Shown here one piece after another: positions 10,125 through 56,499 of a stretch of 64,000 nt of DNA. Location of the stretch: IMG/VR virus record IMGVR_UViG_3300032213_001373, positions 38,328 to 102,327 of that record. The stretch is one strand, 5' to 3'. Numbering within the stretch: the stretch's first letter is position 1; every line of letters begins with the position of its first letter. The notes under the pieces were generated by a model. It was not told the DNA's origin. It did not search any database and was given only the letters and a program-made list of their open reading frames with translations. Origin of the DNA: a virus. The translations under genes and the position numbers were made by a program.

Positions 10125-10986
10125 TATCTTCTCCTCTGTATGGCTCACACCGCTTACATCCAGCCACTGAATCAATACTACACATAGGTGGGCGGTTGTT
10201 GTCAACTGCCCAGACTACATCTAAAGCCTTGTCAAAAATGTCAGCTACAAACTCTGGGTTGTACTGTACAACAAACTCTTTATAATCTTGGTTAGCTTTA
10301 AGCTCATAGATAAATACAATCTCTTTTGGAGCTGACTCAAGCAAACCTTCCTCAACCATTAGGTGAGCTAGGTGAAGGTACATCTGACCTTGCAACTGGT
10401 GAGCTCGGAAAGGTTGCTTAACATTACGCCAAGCTTTTTCTAGATCCCCATCAGCCTGCGCCAAGATTGCAGGTGCTTCAAAACGAAGTGTTCCTGTACC
10501 TATAGATTTAATTTCAATAAGGCAGTCATCGCCTAGGCCTTTGATCCAACCATCAGCGTGTCCGCTAATCCTATGCTTGGCACTACGTAAAGGTACTTCT
10601 GCATAGTCAACACTTGGGTGGATATCTTTAGACACACCCCAGCTTGTTCCAGTCTTATCCCTCCACATACCGTAGAGAATTCCCATGTCTCTAAACCATC
10701 CCTGCCATTTAGCGTGGATAGCGTGACCCTCTGCAAAGATAGATACCTGTCGCAGAGTTAACTTCTCTCGAGTTTCTACATAGTTACCACGAAGGGCATG
10801 GTAAGAAGCCAGAGCACACCACTCGGGCTTAATAAGATCAGATGGATGCAGCACATCCTGGCTACGCTCATCAAAAGGTTGGGACAACGTGTAACGCTCA
10901 AGAGAGCCCATCAATCTAGACTCCCGCTTAGAAGCATTAAGAAACGCTTTAAGTTCCTTGCTAGCTACTGTCTTTGGCTTTCCCAT
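10117..10986 (-). CDS. Cas4/RecB-like PD-(D/E)XK nuclease with Fe-S cysteines
   Basis: 289 residues. HADGW with Asp145, then CLIEIKS with Glu158 and Lys160, and HQLQGQMYLH near 195 form the RecB-family nuclease core; EGHAIHAKWQ (86-95) supplies the upstream His. Cys57 together with Cys269, Cys277 and Cys280 (GCKRCEPY) gives the one-plus-three Cys arrangement of the Fe-S cluster found in Cas4 and AddB-type nucleases. No cas1/cas2 or repeat array is present, so this is a phage recombination or end-processing exonuclease rather than part of CRISPR. It overlaps the FmdB-like gene downstream and the WhiB gene upstream. Confidence 0.8.
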   Translation of the reverse strand: MGKPKTVASKELKAFLNASKRESRLMGSLERYTLSQPFDERSQDVLHPSDLIKPEWCALASYHALRGNYVETREKLTLRQVSIFAEGHAIHAKWQGWFRDMGILYGMWRDKTGTSWGVSKDIHPSVDYAEVPLRSAKHRISGHADGWIKGLGDDCLIEIKSIGTGTLRFEAPAILAQADGDLEKAWRNVKQPFRAHQLQGQMYLHLAHLMVEEGLLESAPKEIVFIYELKANQDYKEFVVQYNPEFVADIFDKALDVVWAVDNNRPPMCSIDSVAGCKRCEPYRGEDNA

Positions 10987-11305
10987 ACTTACCCTCCGAG
11001 TTTATCCATTCGTCCAAGGTCAATCCTTTGGCCTTGTATCTGCGCTGTGCTGCATTTCTTTCTCGATGGGACATACCACCAAATATTCCATGCAGCTCGT
11101 CATTCATGATAGCTTCTTTCAAACACTCTTTGCGTACAGGGCAGGGAGGTCGACCGTCCTTGCCCCAACAAATAGCTTTTGCTTGATCTGCTATCGGCTT
11201 ATATAAAGTTTTGTCTCTTGGCGGGAAAAATATTTCCGTATCTTCCCCTCGGCACTTTGCCTTATAACGCCAAGCCCAAGACGCTTCGTCCTGGTAATCG
11301 TCCAT
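10961..11305 (-). CDS. whiB: WhiB-family Fe-S transcription factor, atypical Cys spacing
   Basis: 114 residues. The four cluster Cys are Cys18 (AKCRG), Cys46, Cys55 and Cys61 (CPVRKECLKEA), followed by the family turn LHGIFGGMSHRERN and a basic C-terminus. In standard WhiB proteins the middle pair is Cys-x2-Cys; here eight residues (WGKDGRPP) separate them. The family binds [4Fe-4S] and works with the primary sigma factor in Actinobacteria, so this gene both indicates the host and suggests takeover of host transcription. A second WhiB with normal spacing is at 20904-21191. Confidence 0.85.
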   Translation of the reverse strand: MDDYQDEASWAWRYKAKCRGEDTEIFFPPRDKTLYKPIADQAKAICWGKDGRPPCPVRKECLKEAIMNDELHGIFGGMSHRERNAAQRRYKAKGLTLDEWINSEGKYGKAKDSS

Positions 11306-20737: not shown

Positions 20738-20907
20738 TAGTCCACCGGTGTTGGTGCGGTTGCAAGCGCACCGCATAACGCACATTCCATATCAAGCATG
20801 TAAAGAGAGATCTCTCCCTCTTCAAACATAACCTGTACCTTCCACAGCAGAGAGCCGCAGATACATACATGCAATGGTGCTTCTTTATCTCTAAGATCTA
20901 AACTCAT
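20737..20907 (-). CDS. small zinc-ribbon protein
   Basis: 56 residues: MSLDLRDKEAPLHVCICGSL has Cys15-x-Cys17, and MECALCGALATAPTPVD has a Cys-x2-Cys pair (residues 42 and 45), giving one probable zinc site. It overlaps the WhiB gene upstream by ATGA and the primase downstream by TAATG. The coupling argues that it is real and co-translated with primase. The function is unknown. Confidence 0.65.
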   Translation of the reverse strand: MSLDLRDKEAPLHVCICGSLLWKVQVMFEEGEISLYMLDMECALCGALATAPTPVD

Positions 20908-21191
20908 GCCCTTACCCTCTTCCTACGACGCATTAGGCGCCGCTCATGAGGAGTTGTTGCTCCCCAAATACCATCCAGCTCAGGATGCTTAAGTGCATAC
21001 TCAAGACACCCTAGTGTTAACGGACAGCTCTTACAAATAGCCTTTGCTGTATACATATCTGCATACTCTTCAGGTGTCGAGTCTGTAAGGTCGTCCTTCT
21101 CCCTTGTAAAGAAGAGTTCAGGATCTACCTGTGCACAGAGCTGACTGCCATCAAACAATTGGTGTTCCGAATAGAGATCCATACTCTTCAA
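20904..21191 (-). CDS. whiB: WhiB-family Fe-S transcription factor
   Basis: About 95 residues. Cluster Cys lie in QLCAQV and AICKSCPLTLGCLEYAL, the standard Cys-x(n)-Cys-x2-Cys-x5-Cys, followed by DGIWGATTPHERRLMRRRKR, the family turn and basic DNA-binding tail. Start choice: TTG at 21191 has AAGGA four bases and GGAGG nine bases upstream; ATG at 21182 is possible but poorly spaced. The first 40 bases overlap the DnaB gene, whose stop is at 21151. Together with the WhiB at 10961-11305 it supports an actinobacterial host. Confidence 0.85.
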   Translation of the reverse strand: MKSMDLYSEHQLFDGSQLCAQVDPELFFTREKDDLTDSTPEEYADMYTAKAICKSCPLTLGCLEYALKHPELDGIWGATTPHERRLMRRRKRVRA

Positions 21192-22392
21192 ACTTTCCTT
21201 CCTCCCAGTCCCACAACAGGTCACTTGAAGCCGGTCCGCAGTTACGGCTGGCTACGATCTTAAGCTCACGAGATGTATCGTCTTCTTCATCCTGCTTTTG
21301 CAAACCAAGGATTACATCTGAGTCCTGATAGAACGATGATGAATATCCAATTGCGTCCGCGGAAACTTGACGCTTCTTCATCTTCCAGAGAAGCACCTGT
21401 GTGGAGACGACGATAGGAATCTCTTTAGCCATAGCAAGATGCTTAAGGCCACGAGTTATATTGGTGAGTGCTTGAGGAGAGTTGGACTCTCCACTGACCT
21501 CATCAAGCATAAGATAAACACCGTCAACAAAAACAATGTTAGGACGAAGCTTGTCGATCTTTGCTGAGAGTCCTGTAACTGTCATTGCTGATACTGAATC
21601 TGTTAGATAGAAGTTGTGCATGGTCTCCATCTTTGTTAGTGCTGCTTTGTAGCGAGCTTCTTCATCTGGATTAAGAGAACCACGGATAAGTCGAGAGTGT
21701 GCAATCTTGGCACGCATTGCATCGTGACGATGTTGCTGTTCAATGTTAGTCATCTCAAAAGATTGGAACATTGGAACAAACCCATCTTCGTGAATGTTAA
21801 CTGCAACCTGCATTGCAAGCACAGACTTACCGGTCTTAGGTGGTGCAATGATTGTTACAAGTTGTCCCGGCTGAAGACCTGCAGTTGCTTGGTCGATAGT
21901 TCTAAAGCCGGTTGCCATTCCAAGCAAACCATTAGGACGAGTCTTAACACTTAGATACTCATCAAAACGATTCATTGGATCTTTAGTTAGATCGATATCA
22001 GATGACTCTGCTACACCCTCATCTGCAATACGGGCAACGCCACGACTCATCGCAGCTAAAGCAGAGTTGTGATCTCCCTGTGAGATTGCCTCTGCTGCAC
22101 TCTGTACTACGTCAATAGTGTGCTGGCGTTTGCGGTACTCAACTAACTGATCTACAAGATACTCAAGAGAATCTTCTACTGCCAAGAGGTTGTAGGTAGG
22201 AAAGTTATCTTTGACTGTGACAGCTGTAGGAACTTCGCTGTACTTAGTCCAGTGCTGTCTAAGGAACTGCCAGACCTGTCGATTCTCATCAACAAAGAAC
22301 CAACCGTCCTGAACCCCGGCCTCTAGCAGAGGAGCGATATCACGGGTGCGGATAGCACGAGACAGTAACCTGATCTCATTATCTGCTGCCAT
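21151..22392 (-). CDS. dnaB: DnaB-like replicative helicase
   Basis: 413 residues. The N-terminal helical domain (1-125) is followed by GFRTIDQATAGLQPGQLVTI, Walker A PPKTGKS (184-190), FQSFEMTN, Walker B NIVFVDGVYLM, and DSDVILGLQKQ near the C-terminus, the RecA-like core of DnaB helicases. The hexamer unwinds DNA at the fork. It is next to a DnaC-like loader and an initiator-like protein, a complete replisome-loading set. The 3' end overlaps the WhiB gene. Confidence 0.9.
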   Translation of the reverse strand: MAADNEIRLLSRAIRTRDIAPLLEAGVQDGWFFVDENRQVWQFLRQHWTKYSEVPTAVTVKDNFPTYNLLAVEDSLEYLVDQLVEYRKRQHTIDVVQSAAEAISQGDHNSALAAMSRGVARIADEGVAESSDIDLTKDPMNRFDEYLSVKTRPNGLLGMATGFRTIDQATAGLQPGQLVTIIAPPKTGKSVLAMQVAVNIHEDGFVPMFQSFEMTNIEQQHRHDAMRAKIAHSRLIRGSLNPDEEARYKAALTKMETMHNFYLTDSVSAMTVTGLSAKIDKLRPNIVFVDGVYLMLDEVSGESNSPQALTNITRGLKHLAMAKEIPIVVSTQVLLWKMKKRQVSADAIGYSSSFYQDSDVILGLQKQDEEDDTSRELKIVASRNCGPASSDLLWDWEEGKFEEYGSLFGTPIV

Positions 22393-43394: not shown

Positions 43395-45164
43395 CTATAT
43401 AGTGGCCAAGAAGTTGTCGGTTGTAGACCCTTGGTTTCCCGTGGAAGGTCCCTTAATTATACCCACAGATGTTCCCCTAATAGGGCTGGAGGGCGTAAGG
43501 CTTAGGGTAGAACCTACTTGAGACCCGGTCAAGTTAGACCCTGAATACGCTGAAGAAGTTATAGTGCTTCCTACGGTTGTTACGTATACAGATCCGACTG
43601 TAGCAAAGCCTGAAGTATTAGTAGCCAAGTTTAAACTAGAGGCTACAGCAACAGTTCCAGACACAGAGCTAACCAATACAAGGTCGCTAGTATAGGTAGT
43701 CACGCTTCTAGTAGAGGTAAAGCAAGAGTATGTGGTGCGGTTTCTAGTTGCTGTAAAGCAAGAATAGAAAGTAGGTTGTACTACCTGAGACGTAAAGCAG
43801 CTGTAGGTAATTGGATTATTAACTGAGCGGGTAGAGGTATAGCAGCTGTAGGTAATAGGGTTATTGACTAAACGGGTAGAGGTGTAGCAGCTATATGTAA
43901 TAGGGTTAGGTACGTTGCGAGTAGAGGTGTAGCAATAATATTGAGTGTAGGTAAAAGGAACAGTCGTAGTGCTACAAGACCAAGATCCCGCTGTAGTAGT
44001 TGTTGTTGCACAGTAGGTAAAGTTAGCCCCAGCGGTGGTTCCGTTACAGGTTTTTTGTTGAACTTCACTACCAGTACAATAACCACTAAATAAGCTAATA
44101 AGTCTACAACTTGTAGTTGTAGATCCTGGACTTTGAGTAGGAATTTCACAGCATCCTGAAAGATCCCAAATATTAGCTGCGGTTCTTACACCTCCGGAAC
44201 AATAGCTAGAGTTTACAGTCTCTGAGAACTCTCCCGCACAAGAACCTGCTGGACAACCAAAACCCATGGTATCTACACGGCCTTGGTCGCAAACAGCAGT
44301 GCTACCGCCTCCGCCTTGGCTAACTCCAGAACAACACTGGTTTGATGGTGGGTTGCTAGAGCTAGTTACTTGACTCTGGTCGCAAACATTGCTTTGACCG
44401 CCGCCGCCTTGGCTAACACCAGAGCAGCATTGGTTTGATGGAGGGTTACTAGTACTTGTTACTTGGCCTTGGTCGCAAACAGTGCTGGTGCCACCACCGC
44501 CTTGGGTAACTCCAGAACAGCATTGATTTGAAGGAGGGTTGCTTGTACTTGTTACTTGGTTTCCTGTACAGGCTGTGCCGCCTCCGCTTGATGTTACTCC
44601 AGAACAGCAGTTGGATGCGGGAGGGTTGTTTTGGTTTGTTATAGGCGTTTGATCACAGACAGTTACCGAACCTGTAACTACTGGAGAACAACAGTTTCCT
44701 GCCGGAGGATTGTTAAACTCACTTACTAAACCTTGATCACAAAAGGTATTTGTAACAGATGTAAATCGTGGGTAGCTTGCCCACCAAGAACCAGAGTCTG
44801 TAACCCAAAATGCTGGACCCACACCGCCGTTTGCATCTGTCTGTACCTTTACATCAGTATTACCTAGATTAATAGATGCTAAAGGATAGCTAGTTGCAGC
44901 ATCGTCTGATATAGCGCTATTAGATCCGCTAATGCGCCAGTTGCCGCGGGTAGCATTCCAAATTTGACCTGAATCAGCTGTACCTAATCCAAGAGCCGTA
45001 GAGGCTCGGTTAAAAGCGTCTTGTATTTTAGAAGCAAACCATTGTTGCCATACGCCACCAACTTTAACGTAGCCAGAAGTAGCGGTCTTCCATTGACCGC
45101 CAACTTTTACAGAAAGACTAGTAATAGTCTTCCAGGCACCATTAACTTTGGATTGACCAGGCAT
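43395..45164 (-). CDS. Cys-rich tandem-repeat structural protein
   Basis: 589 residues. N-terminal repeats KVGGQWKTATSGYVKVGGVW, then a beta domain (about 40-145), then about five degenerate 30-residue repeats of the form VCDQGQVTSTSNPPSNQCC followed by SGV and a Gly run (residues about 150-290), then a Cys-rich stretch and five or six repeats of ITYSCYTSTR(x)VNNP (about 400-480). The C-terminal part is Ser/Thr/Val beta strands. Cys are paired and spaced as in extracellular disulfide or metal-bound repeats. It may be a fibre or surface-decoration protein. No known family was recognised. Confidence 0.65.
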   Translation of the reverse strand: MPGQSKVNGAWKTITSLSVKVGGQWKTATSGYVKVGGVWQQWFASKIQDAFNRASTALGLGTADSGQIWNATRGNWRISGSNSAISDDAATSYPLASINLGNTDVKVQTDANGGVGPAFWVTDSGSWWASYPRFTSVTNTFCDQGLVSEFNNPPAGNCCSPVVTGSVTVCDQTPITNQNNPPASNCCSGVTSSGGGTACTGNQVTSTSNPPSNQCCSGVTQGGGGTSTVCDQGQVTSTSNPPSNQCCSGVSQGGGGQSNVCDQSQVTSSSNPPSNQCCSGVSQGGGGSTAVCDQGRVDTMGFGCPAGSCAGEFSETVNSSYCSGGVRTAANIWDLSGCCEIPTQSPGSTTTSCRLISLFSGYCTGSEVQQKTCNGTTAGANFTYCATTTTTAGSWSCSTTTVPFTYTQYYCYTSTRNVPNPITYSCYTSTRLVNNPITYSCYTSTRSVNNPITYSCFTSQVVQPTFYSCFTATRNRTTYSCFTSTRSVTTYTSDLVLVSSVSGTVAVASSLNLATNTSGFATVGSVYVTTVGSTITSSAYSGSNLTGSQVGSTLSLTPSSPIRGTSVGIIKGPSTGNQGSTTDNFLATI

Positions 45165-45974: not shown

Positions 45975-46310
45975 TTACGCTACCTCAGAACCAAAAGCCT
46001 GGAATGTTAGGTTAGCTGTTGATGCCACCACAGTAACGCTGTCAGCAGCTGACAGCGTGATACCTAATGTAAAGGTAGTGGTGGTATTAGCTGGGACAGT
46101 TGTGTCATAGGCTAGGTATTGCTTGTTGTCTAGAGCTGCGTTATCTTCACGAAGCGCAATACGGTAGGTTGCTGCGGTAGTTCCGCGGTTGCAGATCACG
46201 ATTGTAGACACAACGGCTGAGGTGTTGGATGGCACTGCGTATAGCTGGCTGCCTCCCGCTACGTTAGCTGCTGGCGCAACCTGACCTAGAATCTTATATG
46301 TCGTTGCCAA
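45975..46310 (-). CDS. beta-sandwich decoration-like protein
   Basis: 111 residues from TTG 46310 (AAGGAG seven bases upstream), overlapping the glycosyltransferase gene. GQVAPAANVAGGSQLYAVPS, TSAVVSTIVICNRGTTAATY and RIALREDNAALDNKQYLAYD, closing with TLSAADSVTVVAS, look like an Ig or jelly-roll structural domain. A related-looking small protein is at 59612-59947. Not recognised further. Confidence 0.55.
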   Translation of the reverse strand: MATTYKILGQVAPAANVAGGSQLYAVPSNTSAVVSTIVICNRGTTAATYRIALREDNAALDNKQYLAYDTTVPANTTTTFTLGITLSAADSVTVVASTANLTFQAFGSEVA

Positions 46311-47358
46311 GAGATTGCTCCTTCAAATAGAAAGCTAGATTAGCTGTAAGGCGAGGATCCTGTGGGCTTAATTCTACAGCTTTGCGCCCGTATTGTAGGG
46401 CTTTGTCAAACTTTCCTAGGCGATAATAAGAGATAGCTGCAAAGTCCCAGGGTGCTGCCCCCCAGGCAAACTCTTCACATAGATACTCCAGAGGCTTTTC
46501 TTTTATAGCTAACGCCTTTTCTGCAGCCTGATAGCAGGCAGTCCAACGTTCGTTTTGATAGTAATAGTCCGCTAGGTCTACTAAAGCTTCTCGTCTATCA
46601 GGACACTCATCATGTGCCTTTAGTAACCACTCTTCTTTTTCTGAAACCATCTTAGCGATATAACGCATGGAAGCTGCCCGCTCCGGCTTCCAGGTGGCTT
46701 TTGGCAATGAGAGATGGCGCATAAACTCTTGTGTGGCTTCTTCAAAACGACCGTGAAAGAACAACTCGCGGGCGTAGTAAAAAGTGTTTCTATCATCATA
46801 TGGGTCTTCTTGAACAGCCTGAGCTAGCAAAGGCATGTACTGGTTACGAGACTTCGAGTGGTCAGGGTAGTGGTGAATCTCTAACGGGATCCAATCCTGA
46901 ACCTCAATAGATTGGTTGGTAACTATAACCTCGTGTACTGGGTGCTTCCAACGATAGCCTTTACGAGCGTGGATCTTATCTCCACCATACTCAAGTCCGG
47001 GTGTTCCATCCTCTTTCCAACTCCACGTGTATTTATATCGTGGTCTGGTTACGGCTGGGTTTATATTGTCAAAGCCTGAACGCCAACCCTCAACTAGTAC
47101 TTCATCCATATCAAGGGCAATGCAGTAGTCAATGTCAGCTGGGATTGCAGCTAGAGAAGCGTTGCGGGCGTCATCAAACCGCCAAGGTTTAACGCTAATG
47201 TCTATTACGTTTATTCCCAAAGACTTAGCTAGCTCTACGGTTCCATCAGTAGATCCAGTATCAGCTATGAGGATGTAGTCCGCTTCTTTGGCAGACTGAT
47301 ACCAGCGCTCAACGAAATGCTTTTCGTTTAACGCGATTGTGTAAACCGCTATCTTCAT
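46294..47358 (-). CDS. GT2 glycosyltransferase with TPR-like C-terminus
   Basis: 354 residues. IADTGSTDGT (31-40), VKPWRFDDARNASLAAIPAD and the DxD-type ALDMDEVLV (81-89) define the GT-A catalytic domain of family 2; the C-terminal part has helical TPR-like repeats (YYQNERWTACYQAAEKALAI, RLGKFDKALQYGRKAVELSP). Phage GT2 enzymes glycosylate DNA, virion proteins or host surface sugars. Its setting among fibre genes suggests modification of a structural protein. Confidence 0.85.
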   Translation of the reverse strand: MKIAVYTIALNEKHFVERWYQSAKEADYILIADTGSTDGTVELAKSLGINVIDISVKPWRFDDARNASLAAIPADIDYCIALDMDEVLVEGWRSGFDNINPAVTRPRYKYTWSWKEDGTPGLEYGGDKIHARKGYRWKHPVHEVIVTNQSIEVQDWIPLEIHHYPDHSKSRNQYMPLLAQAVQEDPYDDRNTFYYARELFFHGRFEEATQEFMRHLSLPKATWKPERAASMRYIAKMVSEKEEWLLKAHDECPDRREALVDLADYYYQNERWTACYQAAEKALAIKEKPLEYLCEEFAWGAAPWDFAAISYYRLGKFDKALQYGRKAVELSPQDPRLTANLAFYLKEQSLGNDI

Positions 47359-49999: not shown

Positions 50000-50698
50000 C
50001 TAGTCGTAAGACTTCTTAACCCACACGACCTTTTTGTAACCGTCATAGAGGTACTTAGCCACCTTAAAGGTTTGCTTTCTAACCCACATTGCGTCAGGCT
50101 CTAGCACCTCAGACTTCCAATCTTCCCTTTTGAATGGGATGATCTGCATGATTGGAGTTCCTGCAGGTATAACCCCCTCGAAGCCCTCTTTGAGAAAGAA
50201 AGGTATTTCCCCTCCCAAAGAGAACCCGTCGGAGTCCACAACCCCAGAGGTTGTAGTAAAAGGAAGATCAAACCTATTTAACGGGTGTACAAACAAAGCG
50301 CTGTACCCTGGCGGAACTATAACCGCCCAGTAGGTATGCCAGGCATAGAGATCCTGGTCATGACCCTCTGGACGAGGAAGAGTTGTCGCCATGTCTTTTG
50401 GACGGATCTCGATAATAGAAGGTGCCTCGTTCCAGAAGAAACCCACACCTTTTTCATCCCTCTTTACCAAGAGGTCTGTAGGCATTGTGAGCATATAGCC
50501 GGAAGTAAGAGCATCTAGGAAAGGTACACAAAGCTTAATGTCTTTGTTAATACCGCCATTATTACCAAGAATCTTCATCTGCCCACCGCGGAAACGCTTT
50601 GCTTTCTTGTACCACTCAGGTACAGAAGAGCGTGCAGGAGTAGGTGGGTCAAACTTAGCTGTGTCCTCAGACATAGGTCTGAACTTAATTTTTTTCAT
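50000..50698 (-). CDS. conserved phage protein, cupin-like
   Basis: 232 residues. PEWYKKAKRFRG, TSGYMLTMPTDLLVKRDEKG, YAWHTYWAVIVPPGYSALFV then HPLNRFDLPFTTTSGVVDSD and AGTPIMQIIPFKREDWKSEV are conserved-looking, probably a cupin-type beta barrel. Proteins with this pattern occur in T4-like cyanophages, function unestablished. It lies beside a permease-like gene and a U32-like/methyltransferase gene. Confidence 0.55.
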   Translation of the reverse strand: MKKIKFRPMSEDTAKFDPPTPARSSVPEWYKKAKRFRGGQMKILGNNGGINKDIKLCVPFLDALTSGYMLTMPTDLLVKRDEKGVGFFWNEAPSIIEIRPKDMATTLPRPEGHDQDLYAWHTYWAVIVPPGYSALFVHPLNRFDLPFTTTSGVVDSDGFSLGGEIPFFLKEGFEGVIPAGTPIMQIIPFKREDWKSEVLEPDAMWVRKQTFKVAKYLYDGYKKVVWVKKSYD

Positions 50699-50700
50699 TT

Positions 50701-51669
50701 TTAGAGGATGCCACCGTAATACAGAGTAACTCCCATAAAGATGATTGGGATAACTAACGCAGCAATAGCTTTGTAGTAATCCTTAAGCGGTGTTCGGAAG
50801 TAGCTCTTACCTACCACTAAACACTTATGCATAGGGGAAAGCATATACCCAGCGTAATCGACTGCAAAGAATAGTGGCAAGGTTTCGATGCCAAATACTC
50901 CTACAGAAATGACCACAAAACCAGCAAACTTGCTGCTACTACCTAGGGCAAAGCTAGCTAAGAATCCTGCAATAGCAACAAGAATTAGTAGGTTATTTTT
51001 GTGAGCGTCTTCTAACCATGCATTGATGGTGTCAAAGTTAGCTTTAACAATGTTGCTGATCACAATAACGACCGCTGTAAACAACAGAACGCGAGCGTAC
51101 TCGACAATCTGCTTGCGATCGCGCTTTGCATCCGCTTCAATCTGCCAAGGCTCTTTATCTTTCTTCTTCAAAGCCTTCTCAGGAATAACGATCTCAATAT
51201 CGTCTTCCTTAAGAATCCTAAAGATGTAGAACAAGATGATAATTACAGCAGTTGCCAGCAAAGGCCAAATTCTGCTCATTAGCTCCCAGTAGCTGATGCT
51301 TAGGGCAGCCATTGGCAAAAGAACTGTTGCCTCTAGGGGAGACCAAAAATAAAAATGGTGCGTAGAAAGGTAATCAATGATTCCATAATTCTTACGCTTC
51401 TTCTTATCTTCTGGAGCAATTGTGTCTAGTGCACCTGCCGATATAGCTACGCGACCTGATATCGGAAGAACACCCGAAAACACAGAAATTAGAGCCACTA
51501 CGGCTCGCTTTGATTTAACTGTTCTAGCAATCCATGCGTACAAAGGCATGAACACTTGAGTCTTCTTTGCAGCAAAGGCAAGACCCATTACTGCTGCTAG
51601 AAGGATTAGGAACTGCTGGTTATCCAGCAACAACGATGATGTAAATTCCATTCCACCACATTCTTTCAT
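50701..51669 (-). CDS. DUF401-like integral membrane protein (putative permease)
   Basis: 322 residues, about eight hydrophobic segments. VALISVFSGVLPISGRVAIS and later AVDYAGYMLSPMHKCLVVGK YFRTPL are the recurring signatures of DUF401-type anion-permease-like proteins; the loop after the fourth segment carries charged KKKDKEPWQIEADAKRDRKQ. DUF401 proteins are normally about 400 residues. A phage-encoded transporter of this kind is unusual. The N-terminus overlaps the U32-like gene by about 50 bases; an internal ATG at 51651 is an alternative start. Confidence 0.55.
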   Translation of the reverse strand: MKECGGMEFTSSLLLDNQQFLILLAAVMGLAFAAKKTQVFMPLYAWIARTVKSKRAVVALISVFSGVLPISGRVAISAGALDTIAPEDKKKRKNYGIIDYLSTHHFYFWSPLEATVLLPMAALSISYWELMSRIWPLLATAVIIILFYIFRILKEDDIEIVIPEKALKKKDKEPWQIEADAKRDRKQIVEYARVLLFTAVVIVISNIVKANFDTINAWLEDAHKNNLLILVAIAGFLASFALGSSSKFAGFVVISVGVFGIETLPLFFAVDYAGYMLSPMHKCLVVGKSYFRTPLKDYYKAIAALVIPIIFMGVTLYYGGIL

Positions 51670-53263
51670 CTTCTAAGCTATTCAATAGCTTTTTTGAATA
51701 TACGGGTGTAAGACCCGCGGCTTTTACTGCATCGTCAGCTGCTTTCACCGTGTCTGTCCAATTCGCGTCATCGAACACCAGGATCGCTTGCTTAGCGAAA
51801 CAGTCCCTATAACGGGTCACGGTCTTATAGATATGCTCGTACTCGTGAGGTCCATCATAGAAAAATAAGTCTACCCCAGTAATTTGGGTAGTATCCACTT
51901 CGTGCACGTCTTCGTTGATGATGTGCACATTGTTCTCCCCAATGTATGGGGTGATATTCTTTTCAAAATCATCTTGACTATTAGGGGGTAGTTCACCGTG
52001 CTCTTCCCGTACAGGTTGAAGGTTCTCCTCCCACATGTCAATAAAGTAGGCATCAAGCTTATTACCGCTTAGTGCCGCAGCGCCTGTAGCACCCAGGTAG
52101 GCACCAACCTCAAGGTAAACCTTAGACTGAGAGGCCAACCCATTTAAAAGCTGCTGCACTCGTGGACTGGTAAGCCCAGGAATCTGGATGTCAAGCTTTC
52201 TATTTACAGAGTCTACAATTTCTCTAGTAGCCACAAGGGTTCTAGGTTGACGCTTATCTCCGTACTTAGCTGCAACAATCTTGTCGCAATAACCACAGTC
52301 CCAGCAATCAAACTTGCAGGTCTTGATTTTTTCACGCCAGATATTAATTGGCTTGTCTACAAGGTTGCCTTCTTCTACAAAGTCTTTGAAGTGGTCAAAG
52401 AGAATCTCCTTGCCAGCAATGTAGTTTCTAATAATCTGCATAGTTTCTCTAAGACGAGACTTAGATTCTCTACCGTGCATCTTGATTACGTCAATACCTA
52501 GTTCTTCTAGGAAGTAAACCCAGTCTTCTCGCCAGGGAGGGAAGTTTGCAGTCTTTAGGGGAACAGCCTGATCTTCGTAATCCCACTTCATGCAGGATAC
52601 GCGGCTTATAGGATCAGCAAAGTACTGTGGCCATTCTGTTCTAGTATTGTTGAAGTGATAGTGCTCATCCATCATTGGGCAGCCTCCTAGGCAACCTTCA
52701 TTTGCTAGAAGGGAAAGTTTTACCCCGTACTTTTCTTTAGCCTTTTTAAATCTACGAAGCTTCTCATGATCACGCATAAGGTCTCGATCAAGATTGATGT
52801 AGTTAAACCCAGCCTTAGCTAAATGGGATACATCTCTAGGCTCAGATACGTTTCTAAGAATAGTGTTCTTTATAAATAAGTTAGGGAACTCAGCCTGCAG
52901 CTGACCACCTGCAACCCAGTGGGTGTGCGGGATTGTGACAGACCTAATACCGGCCTCGTAGAGTGGTCTAAAGTTTTCAATAAACAGATCAAGGTTCTGC
53001 TGTGTAGGTTCTACATAGATATTATTAAAAACCGCAGAAGCAGTAACACCAGTGTGGTCTTGTATAGCCAAAGCAAGGTCATTGAGATACTTGTGATCTT
53101 CATTAGGGTCTATAAAGATATCCCCCATAGCATCTTGTAAGAAAGGTGCTATGCGACAAGTAAAATAAAAATCATAAATGTAGTCTTTGCATTCAAACAA
53201 AAATTCTACAAACTCATTGACTTCCTTCTCGTTGAGCTTGGGATTCAAGGGCACGGTGAACAT
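51620..53263 (-). CDS. U32-like TIM-barrel / SAM methyltransferase fusion
   Basis: 547 residues. The first 340 residues resemble peptidase-U32-type TIM barrels: FNNIYVEPTQQNLDLFIENF, GIRSVTIPHTHWVAGG, GFNYINLDRDLM, then Cys191-x3-Cys195 in LANEGCLGGCPMMDEHYHFN, Cys224 in RVSCMKWDYE, IDVIKMHGRES, and Cys316/320/323/326 in CKFDCWDCGYC; together a likely Fe-S site. U32 relatives (UbiU/V, TrhP, RlhA) hydroxylate tRNA, rRNA or quinone precursors. Residues 380-547 are a class I methyltransferase (KVYLEVGAYLGATG, FIDMWEEN, DLFFYDGPHEYEHIY, LVFDDANW). The substrate is unknown; the fusion suggests sequential modification of one target. Confidence 0.65.
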   Translation of the reverse strand: MFTVPLNPKLNEKEVNEFVEFLFECKDYIYDFYFTCRIAPFLQDAMGDIFIDPNEDHKYLNDLALAIQDHTGVTASAVFNNIYVEPTQQNLDLFIENFRPLYEAGIRSVTIPHTHWVAGGQLQAEFPNLFIKNTILRNVSEPRDVSHLAKAGFNYINLDRDLMRDHEKLRRFKKAKEKYGVKLSLLANEGCLGGCPMMDEHYHFNNTRTEWPQYFADPISRVSCMKWDYEDQAVPLKTANFPPWREDWVYFLEELGIDVIKMHGRESKSRLRETMQIIRNYIAGKEILFDHFKDFVEEGNLVDKPINIWREKIKTCKFDCWDCGYCDKIVAAKYGDKRQPRTLVATREIVDSVNRKLDIQIPGLTSPRVQQLLNGLASQSKVYLEVGAYLGATGAAALSGNKLDAYFIDMWEENLQPVREEHGELPPNSQDDFEKNITPYIGENNVHIINEDVHEVDTTQITGVDLFFYDGPHEYEHIYKTVTRYRDCFAKQAILVFDDANWTDTVKAADDAVKAAGLTPVYSKKLLNSLEDERMWWNGIYIIVVAG

Positions 53264-53639
53264 ATGGTTCTATAACCTTTCCGAATGATAAGCCTTGCTG
53301 TATATCGTCATCTGTTAGTTCGTATTTATATCGCATTGGGCAGTCTACCAGATCGCCCATCTTATTCTTCTTTGGGTGCTCTATAAATCTAGCCTGTTGT
53401 TCTGGGGTGAATTGGTCTTTGACGTTTGAGTTAGCCCACACGTATATAAAGTTTCTAGCTACCTGATAGAACTTATAGCCCATAGCTTCATACTCAGATA
53501 GCTCAAAGAAAGGTAATCCCTCAGGAACGTTCTCTACTTCAGTAAAGTACCAGAACATGAAGGAGCCTTTGATCTTTAAATCATCCCATTGTTCTGGAGT
53601 AAATTTATAGATGTCGTCGTGAAACAGGCCCGCAAACAT
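53214..53639 (-). CDS. hypothetical protein
   Basis: 141 residues, helical/charged: MFAGLFHDDIYKFTPEQWDD, GYKFYQVARNFIYVWANSNV and VEHPKKNKMGDLVDCPMRYK-like stretches. It overlaps the U32-like gene by about 50 bases and is coupled to the coiled-coil gene upstream. Not recognised; possibly an accessory of the modification genes next to it. Confidence 0.5.
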   Translation of the reverse strand: MFAGLFHDDIYKFTPEQWDDLKIKGSFMFWYFTEVENVPEGLPFFELSEYEAMGYKFYQVARNFIYVWANSNVKDQFTPEQQARFIEHPKKNKMGDLVDCPMRYKYELTDDDIQQGLSFGKVIEPYVHRALESQAQREGSQ

Positions 53640-54427
53640 TATGCCTCTAGTTGTTTAGGCTTATCAATAAGTTCAATAGAGAACTGCTTGTTAGAAAGCT
53701 CTTTAATTTTTGCTGATTGAATCTGCTCCATAGCGCTGTTTACTCGTGTAGCCCAGTCTACTGCCACATCAAGAGCTGCAACAGCATGGTCTGTGTCCAT
53801 CATTGAGATGGCGTCCATGTTTCCGGTACCAATCTTGCCGGAAGACAGTAGATCCAATGCTGCCTGCTTACCTAAACGTTGGATCCAATGCTCTTCCTCT
53901 AATTTTAAAGAAAGTTCTTCGTCTAATACGGCGTCTTTTAGATCTGTACCGTCTGGAAGATAGGCTTCCCCTGACTCATACATTTCTTCAATTGCTTTAA
54001 TAAAGCTTAGTCTTTCTGCGTACGCTTGCTTCAAGCGACGGTGCATCTTAACAAGATCGTTTTTATTGGTGATCAACTCAAACTCTTTAAGCTTCATTTT
54101 AGCTGGGGAGGTAATCTCAGCCATCTCTTCGTAAATGACTTCAATCTGAGCCTCTTGCTTAGCAATATTCATCAAAAAGTTTTCAAGCACTTCTTCTCGA
54201 GATCGTAGCTCCAATAAGAATTGTTTATACTTTTGGTATGGGGTAATTTGAGCATCTCCCACAAAATGTTTAATCTTAAAGTATGGGGTGCCGTGATCTA
54301 ACTCAAATGAGAAATTGAGCATCTCAAGTTGTTTTTCATTTAGATCGCTAGTATCAGATACTAAACGTTGTCTAGCAGATTCTAGGCGCTCTTCAAGTGA
54401 CGTAATGTTGTCCATGTTATTTTCCAT
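53639..54427 (-). CDS. coiled-coil protein
   Basis: 262 residues, long heptad-rich helices: NITSLEERLESARQRLVSDT, KYKQFLLELRSREEVLENFL and LVKMHRRLKQAYAERLSFIK, with an acidic C-terminal part and ALDVAVDWATRVNSAMEQIQ near the end. Likely a rod or scaffold. The gene stands between the U32-like block and the tandem fibre paralogues. No family recognised. Confidence 0.55.
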   Translation of the reverse strand: MENNMDNITSLEERLESARQRLVSDTSDLNEKQLEMLNFSFELDHGTPYFKIKHFVGDAQITPYQKYKQFLLELRSREEVLENFLMNIAKQEAQIEVIYEEMAEITSPAKMKLKEFELITNKNDLVKMHRRLKQAYAERLSFIKAIEEMYESGEAYLPDGTDLKDAVLDEELSLKLEEEHWIQRLGKQAALDLLSSGKIGTGNMDAISMMDTDHAVAALDVAVDWATRVNSAMEQIQSAKIKELSNKQFSIELIDKPKQLEA

Positions 54428-54451: not shown

Positions 54452-55474
54452 CTAGTCTCTCCAATACCCGTGTCCGGATGAACGACCGTTAATAGCGGCG
54501 CCGTTTGTATGGGTTCCAGTTAAGCTTGTAGAGGTTACTCTAAAGCCTGAGTCTGTAGCAAAGTCAAATTTACCAATATCATTAACCTGTCCCTGTCCCG
54601 AGGCGTTACCGCCTGCGGTATCTGAGTAGTGACCAAGCATAATGCCGTGAGTTTGGCTCATAGAGAAGTTTTCTTCTCCGCACCACCATACAGACTTCTG
54701 AGGGGTTGAGACAGTATTCTCTGTAGCATAGTTCCACTTACGATGATAACGTCCAGAACCATAGCTACCTTCGTTACCGCCATATCCAAAACCAGTCTTA
54801 GCTGGTTGGCCTTTTTGCTGACCATGGAATCCAGGAGAGGTTCCTGGGGTAGACTCTGTTTCAGTAGCAAATACAAATTTTCTACGTGCTGTGGTGTCTG
54901 TATCCGCACCATCAGCCCACCAGTACCCAAAGTTCTCTGACATGTGGGCTCCAGCACCGGTACCGCCTTGGTTGAAACTAGACCCGGGGGCAGATACGTG
55001 AACTTCAGTTGTTAGGTTAAACTTTTGAAATACTGCCGCCCCTTGATTACCGTTTTGATATGAAAATGTATACCCACCATTAGTGTCCATAGCAAGCATA
55101 GTTGCGGAATCACCAACAGTTTGAGCTGTATTCATAGACGATGATTTGGAGTAAGTAGTTTCGTTTCTCATATTCCAACAAGATGTGGATGTAAACGCAC
55201 CAACTCCGCCGGTTCCCCACATAAAACCAATATTTCTATTGTGAGCGCCGGAGGTATAGTTAGCGTCTTCAGTAAGAATATTTCCGTTGTTAGTTGCTGT
55301 ATCGGTTGAAAACACATACTTATTAACGTTACGCCAAGGCACACTGTCTTTGTACCCTGCGGCAACATACCCAGTCGTTAAAATCTGGCGAGTAAGAAAT
55401 GGCAGAATTCCTCCACGCTTAAAGCGTGCAGTAAAAACACCATTAACGGATCTTTGAGATGCAAAAATAGGCAT
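54452..55474 (-). CDS. fibre/decoration paralogue A
   Basis: About 340 residues from ATG 55474 (TAATG with the paralogue upstream; a longer frame reading into it is spurious). MPIFASQRSVNGVFTARFKR, then GYVAAGYKDSVPWRNVNKYV and repeated Gly/Thr/Asn-rich units with GFMWGTGG, GYTFSYQNGNQ and GYWWADG, and GYGGNEGS near 240. The repeat units of roughly 45-50 residues suggest a beta-propeller or beta-solenoid. N- and C-termini are very close to paralogue B, so the pair arose by duplication. Confidence 0.65.
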   Translation of the reverse strand: MPIFASQRSVNGVFTARFKRGGILPFLTRQILTTGYVAAGYKDSVPWRNVNKYVFSTDTATNNGNILTEDANYTSGAHNRNIGFMWGTGGVGAFTSTSCWNMRNETTYSKSSSMNTAQTVGDSATMLAMDTNGGYTFSYQNGNQGAAVFQKFNLTTEVHVSAPGSSFNQGGTGAGAHMSENFGYWWADGADTDTTARRKFVFATETESTPGTSPGFHGQQKGQPAKTGFGYGGNEGSYGSGRYHRKWNYATENTVSTPQKSVWWCGEENFSMSQTHGIMLGHYSDTAGGNASGQGQVNDIGKFDFATDSGFRVTSTSLTGTHTNGAAINGRSSGHGYWRD

Positions 55475-56499
55475 TAGTCGCTCCACATTCCTTGTCCGGA
55501 AGATCTTCCCTGTACAGGAGATCCTGGAGAGGTTGCACCAGTTCCGCTTTGAATAGCGATAGGCCATTGACCTGATGGCCACAAAGCTCGCGCTCCAGTA
55601 GCGAACTCAAAGTATCCAGACTCATTTACTTGAGCACCATTGTAGTGCCCTAGAACGTACCCACGTGTCTGTGACATAGAGTGGTTCTCTTCACCCGAAT
55701 TCAAAATAGCTTTAGTGTTGGCACCAAGCTGTGTAATAGTTCCAGTAGTGTAGTTCCACTCTCTGTATGTATAGCCCGCGTTGTACCCACCTTCGCCACC
55801 GCCCCAACCTTTACCTACTTTAGAGCTTAGACCTTTTTGCTGAGACCCTGGGCTTGCAGAACTCATAGTTAAGCCTGTATTAGTTTCAGCTTCAGTAATG
55901 AAATTAAATCTTGTACCAATGTTGGCATCAGTCCAAAAGATAGCCTCATTTTCGTGGTTATGGGTCGCTCCACCTGTAGTTCCCTGACTAAGACTAGTAC
56001 CTGTGCTTAAGGTCCAAGCATCATTGGTCATATTAAACTTGTAGTAATTATTATTTGAATTTCCACCGTTTATGTATGTTAGCCATCCAGTGCCCTGAGT
56101 GTCGTAATAGATAGCGGAGTCAGAATCACCCATAGTTCCTGGGGCTGTAGCAGGTTGAGTTTGAGTAGTAAAGTTCTTTAGGTGGAACTTAGAAGTCTTG
56201 TTGTAGCTTCCCATACCTTCGTTACCAGTACCGTTGGTACCAAATACGTAACCCATGGTACGGCTCATAGCACCGCATACGTAGCCACCGGCTTCGTTTA
56301 GAATGTCTCCGCGGTTTGTAGGTTGTTCTGTAGCCCAAGAATATGAGTTAACGTTACGCCAAGCAATACCATCCTTATATCCAGCAGCTACATAACCAGT
56401 AGTAACGATCTGGCGAGTTAGGAATGGAAGGATACCGCCACGCTTAAAGCGGGCGGTAAACACTCCATTAACAGATCGCTGGGAAGCAAAGATAGGCAT
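55474..56499 (-). CDS. fibre/decoration paralogue B
   Basis: 341 residues. MPIFASQRSVNGVFTARFKR, then GYVAAGYKDGIAWRNVNSYS, GYVFGTNGTGNEGMGSYN and repeated units with WGGGEGGYNAGYTYREWNY and HSMSQTRGYVLGHYNGAQ. The first 50 residues are almost identical to paralogue A, the middle diverges, and the ends share RSSGQG(M/Y)W. Propeller- or solenoid-like repeats probably bind a surface ligand. Confidence 0.65.
   Translation of the reverse strand: MPIFASQRSVNGVFTARFKRGGILPFLTRQIVTTGYVAAGYKDGIAWRNVNSYSWATEQPTNRGDILNEAGGYVCGAMSRTMGYVFGTNGTGNEGMGSYNKTSKFHLKNFTTQTQPATAPGTMGDSDSAIYYDTQGTGWLTYINGGNSNNNYYKFNMTNDAWTLSTGTSLSQGTTGGATHNHENEAIFWTDANIGTRFNFITEAETNTGLTMSSASPGSQQKGLSSKVGKGWGGGEGGYNAGYTYREWNYTTGTITQLGANTKAILNSGEENHSMSQTRGYVLGHYNGAQVNESGYFEFATGARALWPSGQWPIAIQSGTGATSPGSPVQGRSSGQGMWSD

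Follow-up and report, generated by a model that had tools for sequence, protein, structure and literature searches.

Enzymes of the U32 family bind a 4Fe-4S cluster and hydroxylate without O2 (PMC6747719, in extract). In Bacillus subtilis, a U32 pair (two proteins) and a COMT-like methyltransferase, all from one operon, hydroxylate and O-methylate tRNA residue U34 to 5-methoxyuridine (mo5U34; PMC6599085, in extract). Here we consider a viral protein that would join both activities in one chain. Many marine cyanophages and, as here, actinophages carry in their fibre clusters the genes for T4-GC354 (GC354) and its coiled-coil neighbour T4-GC353 (GC353), neither of which has an assigned function. 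Our subject is the pair encoded in the window, a stretch of 64,000 nucleotides that forms part of a 102-kb virus record (IMGVR_UViG_3300032213_001373). Read as a U32-like barrel joined to an O-methyltransferase, GC354 is no longer just a "hypothetical protein" but a candidate two-step enzyme that can be tested. We propose, with a probability of roughly one in three (0.35), that GC354 is a fibre-linked tailoring enzyme that would first hydroxylate and then O-methylate, accompanied by a separately exchanged permease in a fixed slot. The core of the unit would consist of three proteins: the fibre protein phrog_1417; its coiled-coil partner, GC353; and the fused enzyme, GC354.

An earlier note on this DNA had labelled the gene as U32-like/methyltransferase. 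Profiles and fold comparison bear out both halves of the label, as parts of one fused protein. The AlphaFold2 model, computed on 37 chosen aligned relatives, has a predicted local distance difference test score (pLDDT) of 84.7 and a predicted TM-score of 0.70. The nearest solved fold to its N-terminal part is the U32 protein Mk0906 (5d88; Z 16.1, root-mean-square deviation 3.1, 222 residues), the sole barrel among the best 50 rows of the fold comparison; Foldseek also matches a U32-type fold (E 1e-6). The landmark motifs of cellular U32 proteins are present in order, with offsets of 54/26/30/73 in GC354 and 51/24/26/75 in U32, and conserved cysteines adjoin the landmark strand. These cysteines form the pattern C-x3-C-x28-C-x91-C-x3-C-x2-C-x2-C, and all seven are invariant in the 37-row alignment. 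Among 22 rows that include named cyanophages, C191, C195, C224, C316, and C320 are invariant, and all rows long enough to include C323 and C326 conserve them too (one row is truncated). By analogy with characterised U32 enzymes, the barrel would most likely bind at least one iron-sulfur cluster and, with no need of O2, hydroxylate a ring that is aromatic or activated in some other way.

The C-terminal domain of the window protein exceeds the PF13578 cut-off, and 37 of 37 relatives match this family at E <= 1 (best 3e-12). Fold matches include TomG (Z 16.9), COMT, MycF, and TrmR (5zw3; Z 15.7). The alignment reveals two groups of invariant residues: E385, G387, and G391 in the S-adenosylmethionine (SAM)-binding motif; and D470, D498, D499, and N501, which are putative metal-site residues. 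The invariance of the second group would fit a metal-dependent O-methyltransferase. Presumably, this domain would then O-methylate the new hydroxyl with SAM.

The same pair of domains could instead modify RNA, most simply the tRNA wobble residue U34 by hydroxylation and O-methylation to mo5U, in which case GC354 would be a fused TrhP and TrmR that tunes translation during infection, so that a single protein would do what bacteria achieve with a wobble-modification pathway of two genes. The pairing is indeed that of the B. subtilis U32/TrmR operon (PMC6599085, in extract), TrmR is among the methyltransferase matches, and several characterised U32 enzymes act on RNA (PMC6747719 and PMC6599085, both in extract). 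Yet neither TrmR, set beside dozens of small-molecule O-methyltransferases, nor RNA-specific methyltransferases in general stand out in the fold lists, where a family's absence from the listed rows excludes nothing. No recognised RNA-binding part was seen in GC354, and no tRNA gene in the window. The fixed place of GC354 in the fibre cluster and the divergence of its methyltransferase domain, which tracks the fibre partner, likewise argue against an RNA target, and we regard it as less likely than the fibre but as a serious rival.

What points to the fibre is the company that GC354 keeps. Near loci were taken as the best 80 of 479 from viral contigs, and counts use loci with enough flank. Upstream of GC354, the coiled coil is present in 72 of 72 loci and phrog_1417 in 71 of 72; among representatives at 95% identity, the counts are 45/45 and 44/45. 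The order fibre, coiled coil, fusion, permease is kept down to about 54% identity, and isolates show the order GC351-GC352-GC353-GC354 after fibre genes. Of 50,697 isolate phage records, 123 carry GC354, all from Synechococcus or Prochlorococcus phages or named cyanophages, and 24 carry GC353; the isolate relatives of GC354 share about 42-45% identity over the whole protein. A collection of 84,980 cellular species yielded only two relatives, by a search with two short peptide patterns that could miss divergent ones. Both lie on short contigs (10 kb and 3 kb) of metagenome-assembled genomes and are possibly viral contamination. GC354 is virtually a virus-only protein.

The enzyme would most likely act on the fibre of the phage itself or on something that this fibre carries. 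We put the fibre first for two reasons: the hosts of these phages differ in their envelopes, yet the block stays within the fibre cluster, and co-divergence gives a hint in the same direction. The presence of the same block in viruses of actinobacteria and cyanobacteria suggests that viral fibres or cell molecules are modified in a way common to both. This breadth sits poorly with another proposal, that the block alters a host envelope glycan, against superinfection or adsorption to debris, through a GT2 glycosyltransferase, the O-methyltransferase, and the permease. The matches do include Methyltransf_24 and MycF-like sugar O-methyltransferases, and a GT2 gene lies nearby. However, the envelopes of actinobacteria and cyanobacteria differ, and the GT2 is linked in only 11 of 61 near loci, a count that also leaves it unsupported as the member of the unit that the earlier note had made of it. 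A role in the envelope seems quite improbable.

Co-divergence was measured in 36 representatives, drawn from the 67 loci at which all five genes are present. The distance correlations are 0.85 (rank) for the coiled coil and phrog_1417, 0.79 for barrel and methyltransferase, 0.58 for barrel and permease, and 0.27 for permease and coiled coil. Because GC353 co-diverges with the fibre protein, it looks like a fibre partner, and is probably to be grouped with the fibres instead of the enzymes; the earlier description of it as non-structural is not borne out. When the barrel is allowed for, the methyltransferase remains correlated with the coiled coil (partial correlation 0.51) and with the fibre (0.42), values that 0 of 2000 permutations reached. 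When the methyltransferase is allowed for, the barrel no longer tracks either. Physical order would lead one to expect the reverse of this tie between methyltransferase and fibre, because the gene has its barrel end closer to the fibre. Rate-matched barrel columns gave the same outcome overall. This is a hint that the partner of the methyltransferase lies on the fibre side. The partial-distance effect is weaker in the near clade, where the tie of barrel to permease vanishes as well, so we do not rest the case on this effect.

The permease behaves differently. Within the near clade it is almost uncorrelated with either GC354 domain (0.14-0.16), and its tie to the barrel is gone. We take this as evidence that the permease is swapped in place, exchanged separately from its neighbours. 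Its label as DUF401 stands: PF04165 matches the C-terminal part with 39.2 bits against a cut-off of 24, and among 25 aligned relatives, all match DUF401 and nine match CitMHS (E <= 0.01). The NCBIfam model TIGR00529 gives 45.9 bits, below its cut-off of 378.4. In the slot that follows the enzyme sits what is probably a transporter of the carboxylate type that has a role of its own, the kind of substrate being read from its resemblance to DUF401 and CitMHS; the titles and abstract starts of the DUF401 literature name no substrate. The transport of an anion across the membrane that the earlier note envisaged is likewise supported by family resemblance only.

Linkage was counted first within 3 kb downstream of GC354, and then by hidden Markov model (HMM) with 4 kb of room required. 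The first count places the permease after GC354 in 64 of 66 near loci (38/38 among the 95% representatives) and the second in 63 of 65 (missing in L079 and L080). Conversely, 64 of 64 near permease loci have the barrel upstream; this set has many contigs in common with the near GC354 loci. The permease sets comprised the best 80 each of at least 563, of 276, and of 250 loci, with loci already counted left out (79, 79, and 56 used). Marine cyanophages differ: the permease is nearby in 0 of 43 P-HM2-type GC354 loci (HMM, 4 kb; best 80 of 472), and the barrel is near the permease in 13 of 42 S-H25-type and 6 of 33 S-CAM4-type loci. A 207-kb record holds the permease and no barrel, and only nine of the 50,697 isolate records hold the permease at all. 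The expectation, set beforehand, that these genes co-occur and that the permease is not absent from most relatives therefore holds in the window's lineage and fails among marine cyanophages. Permease-enzyme linkage is fixed in the former and loose outside it, and an obligate tie in general is rejected.

Where it lies away from the enzyme, the marine permease adjoins transaldolase in S-CAM4 (L004, 7057-8930), and a transaldolase-like open reading frame (ORF), by our own reading of its sequence, ranks among the most frequent neighbours of the permease in contigs (41 of 109 loci). Because it so often lies next to transaldolase in marine cyanophages, the permease is a widespread uncharacterised auxiliary gene.

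These observations bear on the possibility that the substrate converted by GC354 is an aromatic metabolite of the host or a quinone, with the permease moving a carboxylate substrate or product, which is the earlier note's view without cupin and GT2. Adjacency of permease and enzyme in nearly all near relatives, resemblance to CitMHS transporters, and the marine neighbour transaldolase, an auxiliary metabolic gene, all suit such a small-molecule pathway. But the divergence of permease and enzyme is barely correlated in the near clade (0.16), marine phages can carry either gene without the other nearby, the 207-kb record has the permease and no barrel, and the fibre link is left unexplained; we rate this account like the RNA reading, as less likely than the fibre but a serious rival. 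The independent exchange of the permease would be accommodated if the fibre cluster is a hot spot that gathers unrelated accessory genes, where linkage reflects shared descent and recombination, with no functional coupling. Such a hot spot would also accommodate a DUF6065 gene that switches side of the permease between loci, and the oxygenases, plastocyanin, and others that fill the same interval in phage S-ShM2. Against it stands the order of fibre, coiled coil, fusion, and permease, kept to about 54% identity and across phages of different phyla, and we consider mere accumulation improbable.

Several points weigh against the fibre-linked two-step enzyme. PF01136 (U32) finds no match in the window's record or in any of the 37 relatives. 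The hhalign comparison of GC354 with a U32 profile of only four sequences is in register but weak (P 0.041). The cysteine spacing differs from published U32 patterns (CX6CX15CX3/4C; for UbiU, CX6CX16CX38C; for UbiV, CXnCX12CX3C; PMC6747719, in extract), and for this reason we call GC354 U32-like rather than a U32 member by signature. In our own comparison Glu162, essential in TrhP, has no Glu counterpart in GC354, and the cysteine-bearing stretches are modelled with low confidence (pLDDT about 60-73 for residues 191-240 and 51-69 for residues 291-340). On the fibre side, the tie between methyltransferase and coiled coil is smaller in the near clade alone (partial correlation 0.35; 0.56 against 0.48 for the rate-matched barrel), and partial Mantel tests are liberal. 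GC353 and GC354 are about 6 kb apart in S-ShM2, no virion proteomics was found in the literature for the block proteins, and position in a fibre cluster alone names no substrate.

We infer the iron-sulfur cluster, the hydroxylation, the methylation, the fibre as target, and the transport from domains, fold, residues, gene order, and distribution. A bolder version can be drawn from the same material. In it, a virus-invented single-chain enzyme hydroxylates, with no need of O2, residues of the phage's own fibre, or a group attached to them, and O-methylation then caps these; the co-substrate is a carboxylate such as prephenate, whose supply is adjusted by the adjacent DUF401 permease; and the cassette has spread between actinobacterial and cyanobacterial phages because it acts on the virion and not on the host surface. 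This is a long shot.

The phage itself was at first assumed, from GC353 and GC354, to be a T4-like cyanophage, for which a T4-type family B polymerase is the criterion and psbA is common. The assumption was rejected on four counts, with PF00136 not searched in the phage's own record. The window's PolA is a family A polymerase whose closest isolates are Streptomyces phages of the BRock group (38-40%); its tail sheath is closest to the same group (35-36%); psbA was not found in the 102-kb record, which is possibly a fragment; and the record carries two whiB genes (3.7e-19 and 7.3e-18), an actinophage indicator (PMC10202952 and PMC10914622, both in extract). The whiB-like genes lie on the minus strand at window positions 10961-11305 and 20904-21224, with matches at about 11051-11272 and 20934-21143. 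Kinship with BRock together with two whiB genes makes the window phage an actinophage that shares the block with cyanophages. More widely, whiB is present in 14 of 36 records searched, all 14 among the 30 of the near set; polymerases are of family A in 5 of 25 records and of family B in 2 of 25. In the barrel tree (59 rows, 34 of them unlabelled), one branch parts the whiB rows from the cyanophage-type rows with support 100/99. Tree and whiB together show the block to be common to actinophages and cyanophages, and at least one transfer between them, in either direction, seems to have occurred.

The five genes are transcribed from the minus strand between fibre genes, in the order coiled coil, small protein, fusion, permease, and DUF6065-type protein (Table 1). 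They are genes and not chance ORFs, because four of the five have relatives in profile or database searches and their order is conserved in dozens of contigs. All five lie where the earlier note had placed them. It had also called them contiguous and overlapping, which is correct for the first four: the coiled coil and the small protein overlap by 1 nucleotide, the small protein and the fusion by 50, and the called ORFs of the fusion and the permease by 50. This last overlap is nearer 32, because the conserved start of the permease (MEFTSS) falls 18 nucleotides within its called ORF. The DUF6065-type gene, in contrast, is separated from the permease by a gap of 2 nucleotides.

Table 1. Positions in the window of the block genes, the domains of GC354, and neighbouring genes
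Feature	Position	Strand	Evidence
GT2 glycosyltransferase with tetratricopeptide repeats (phrog_13126)	46294..47358	-	PF13704, PF00535
DUF6065-type protein (phrog_7084), dUTPase-like fold	50000..50698	-	DUF6065 in 18/35 relatives; AlphaFold2 pLDDT 83.6
DUF401 permease (phrog_14035)	50701..51669, likely true start 51651	-	PF04165 39.2 bits; hydrophobic segments
T4-GC354 / phrog_1458 fusion	51620..53263	-	phrog_1458 1e-163; PF13578 8e-9; AlphaFold2 pLDDT 84.7
COMT-like O-methyltransferase domain of GC354	residues about 351-547, window 51623-52213	-	O-methyltransferases Z up to 16.9
U32-like barrel of GC354	residues 1 to about 338, window 52250-53263	-	Mk0906 Z 16.1, 222 residues
Small protein, no family match, lineage-restricted, between coiled coil and fusion	53214..53639	-	6/72 near loci (tblastn)
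T4-GC353 / phrog_1409 coiled-coil protein	53639..54427	-	phrog_1409 1e-36
Fibre-region protein phrog_1417 copy 1	54452..55582, true start probably 55474	-	phrog_1417 2.5e-29
Fibre-region protein phrog_1417 copy 2	55474..56499	-	phrog_1417 3e-28

Upstream of the block lie two tandem copies of phrog_1417, a family of cyanophage fibre clusters. They share a near-identical N-terminal stretch (MPIFASQRSVNGVFTARFKRGGILPFLTRQI), and the called GTG start of copy 1 is probably too early. Downstream lie collagen-like fibre ORFs and, 3 kb further, the GT2 gene. The fibre block also encodes a 589-residue protein (43395-45164) of tandem Cys-rich repeats (NPPSNQCCSGV, glycine runs) and Tyr/Cys-rich CYTSTR repeats, an unusual make-up for a cytosolic phage product. 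Searches of Pfam, PHROGs, and NCBIfam gave no credible family for the small protein, and tblastn finds it in 6 of 72 near loci. In S-ShM2 (L168, 6635-9311), GC353 and GC354, which are adjacent in other phages, are separated by three 2-oxoglutarate-Fe(II) oxygenases and a minor coat protein, followed by plastocyanin and gnd.

The last gene of the block had been called cupin-like and counted as a member. Neither claim fared well. The window protein matches no Pfam family at E <= 1. Among the 35 chosen sequences on which its structure alignment was built, 18 match DUF6065 and none PF00692 (dUTPase). All 50 listed rows of the fold comparison are dUTPases (best Z 10.4), although such a list alone would not exclude cupins, and the top Foldseek match reaches only E 2e-3. 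By hhalign, the protein aligns with a dUTPase profile at P 2.5e-4, against 0.43 for an unrelated control. The cupin reading is rejected on these grounds; the weak exception is EutQ, which we take to be a cupin-fold family, matched by two of the 35 relatives (best 0.0012). With the dUTPase superfamily the protein shares the fold and the regions of motifs 2-4, which align; it differs by great divergence and by the C-terminal glycine-rich motif, not seen in the alignment.

Attachment of this gene to the block is loose (31 of 66 near loci). DUF6065 genes also occur off the block, or between enzyme and permease rather than after them (L305 and L307, 19485-19874; L311, 20216-20890; L263, L264, and L265), so the gene is mobile. 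Isolate relatives come from haloviruses in 49 of 50 records; relatives lie beside ribonucleotide reductase in HF2, and near ribonucleotide reductase and transaldolase in S-RIM4. A nucleotide-related role is plausible. A literature search returned no paper on DUF6065. Of the modification module imagined by the earlier note, the domain content (U32-like and methyltransferase) remains, whereas the cupin is gone, the GT2 is loosely attached, and the coiled coil falls on the fibre side.

If GC354 does act on fibres, it would represent a viral route for the chemical tailoring of host-recognition proteins. Its presence in phages of unrelated bacteria sharpens the question of a common substrate. A literature search found no paper combining cyanophage, U32, and tail fiber, and none on phage-borne U32 proteins appeared among the titles and abstract starts retrieved with "peptidase U32" and "phage".

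How, then, does the locus compare with known systems? The Streptomyces phages of the BRock group are nearest to the window by PolA and tail sheath, but show no match to the permease, fusion, DUF6065-type protein, or coiled coil. GC353 and GC354 of marine cyanomyoviruses (P-HM2, P-SSM4, Syn33, S-RIM2, and S-H25) are orthologous to the window proteins and follow fibre genes in the same order; in S-H25 and metaG-MbCM1 the permease too lies a short way downstream, as in the window. Those cyanophages are T4-like and rarely carry the permease, whereas the window phage is not T4-like. GC354 has in common with the U32 family (UbiU/UbiV, TrhP, and RlhA; Mk0906) the fold, the order and spacing of motifs, and cysteines beside the landmark strand; it differs by another cysteine pattern, by the lack of a Pfam U32 match, and by its fusion to a methyltransferase. 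Finally, the TrhP1/TrhP2 and TrmR operon of B. subtilis (yrrMNO) likewise pairs U32 hydroxylase with COMT-like O-methyltransferase (PMC6599085, in extract), but there the partners are separate proteins encoded by cellular genes, whereas GC354 is one viral protein encoded in a fibre cluster.

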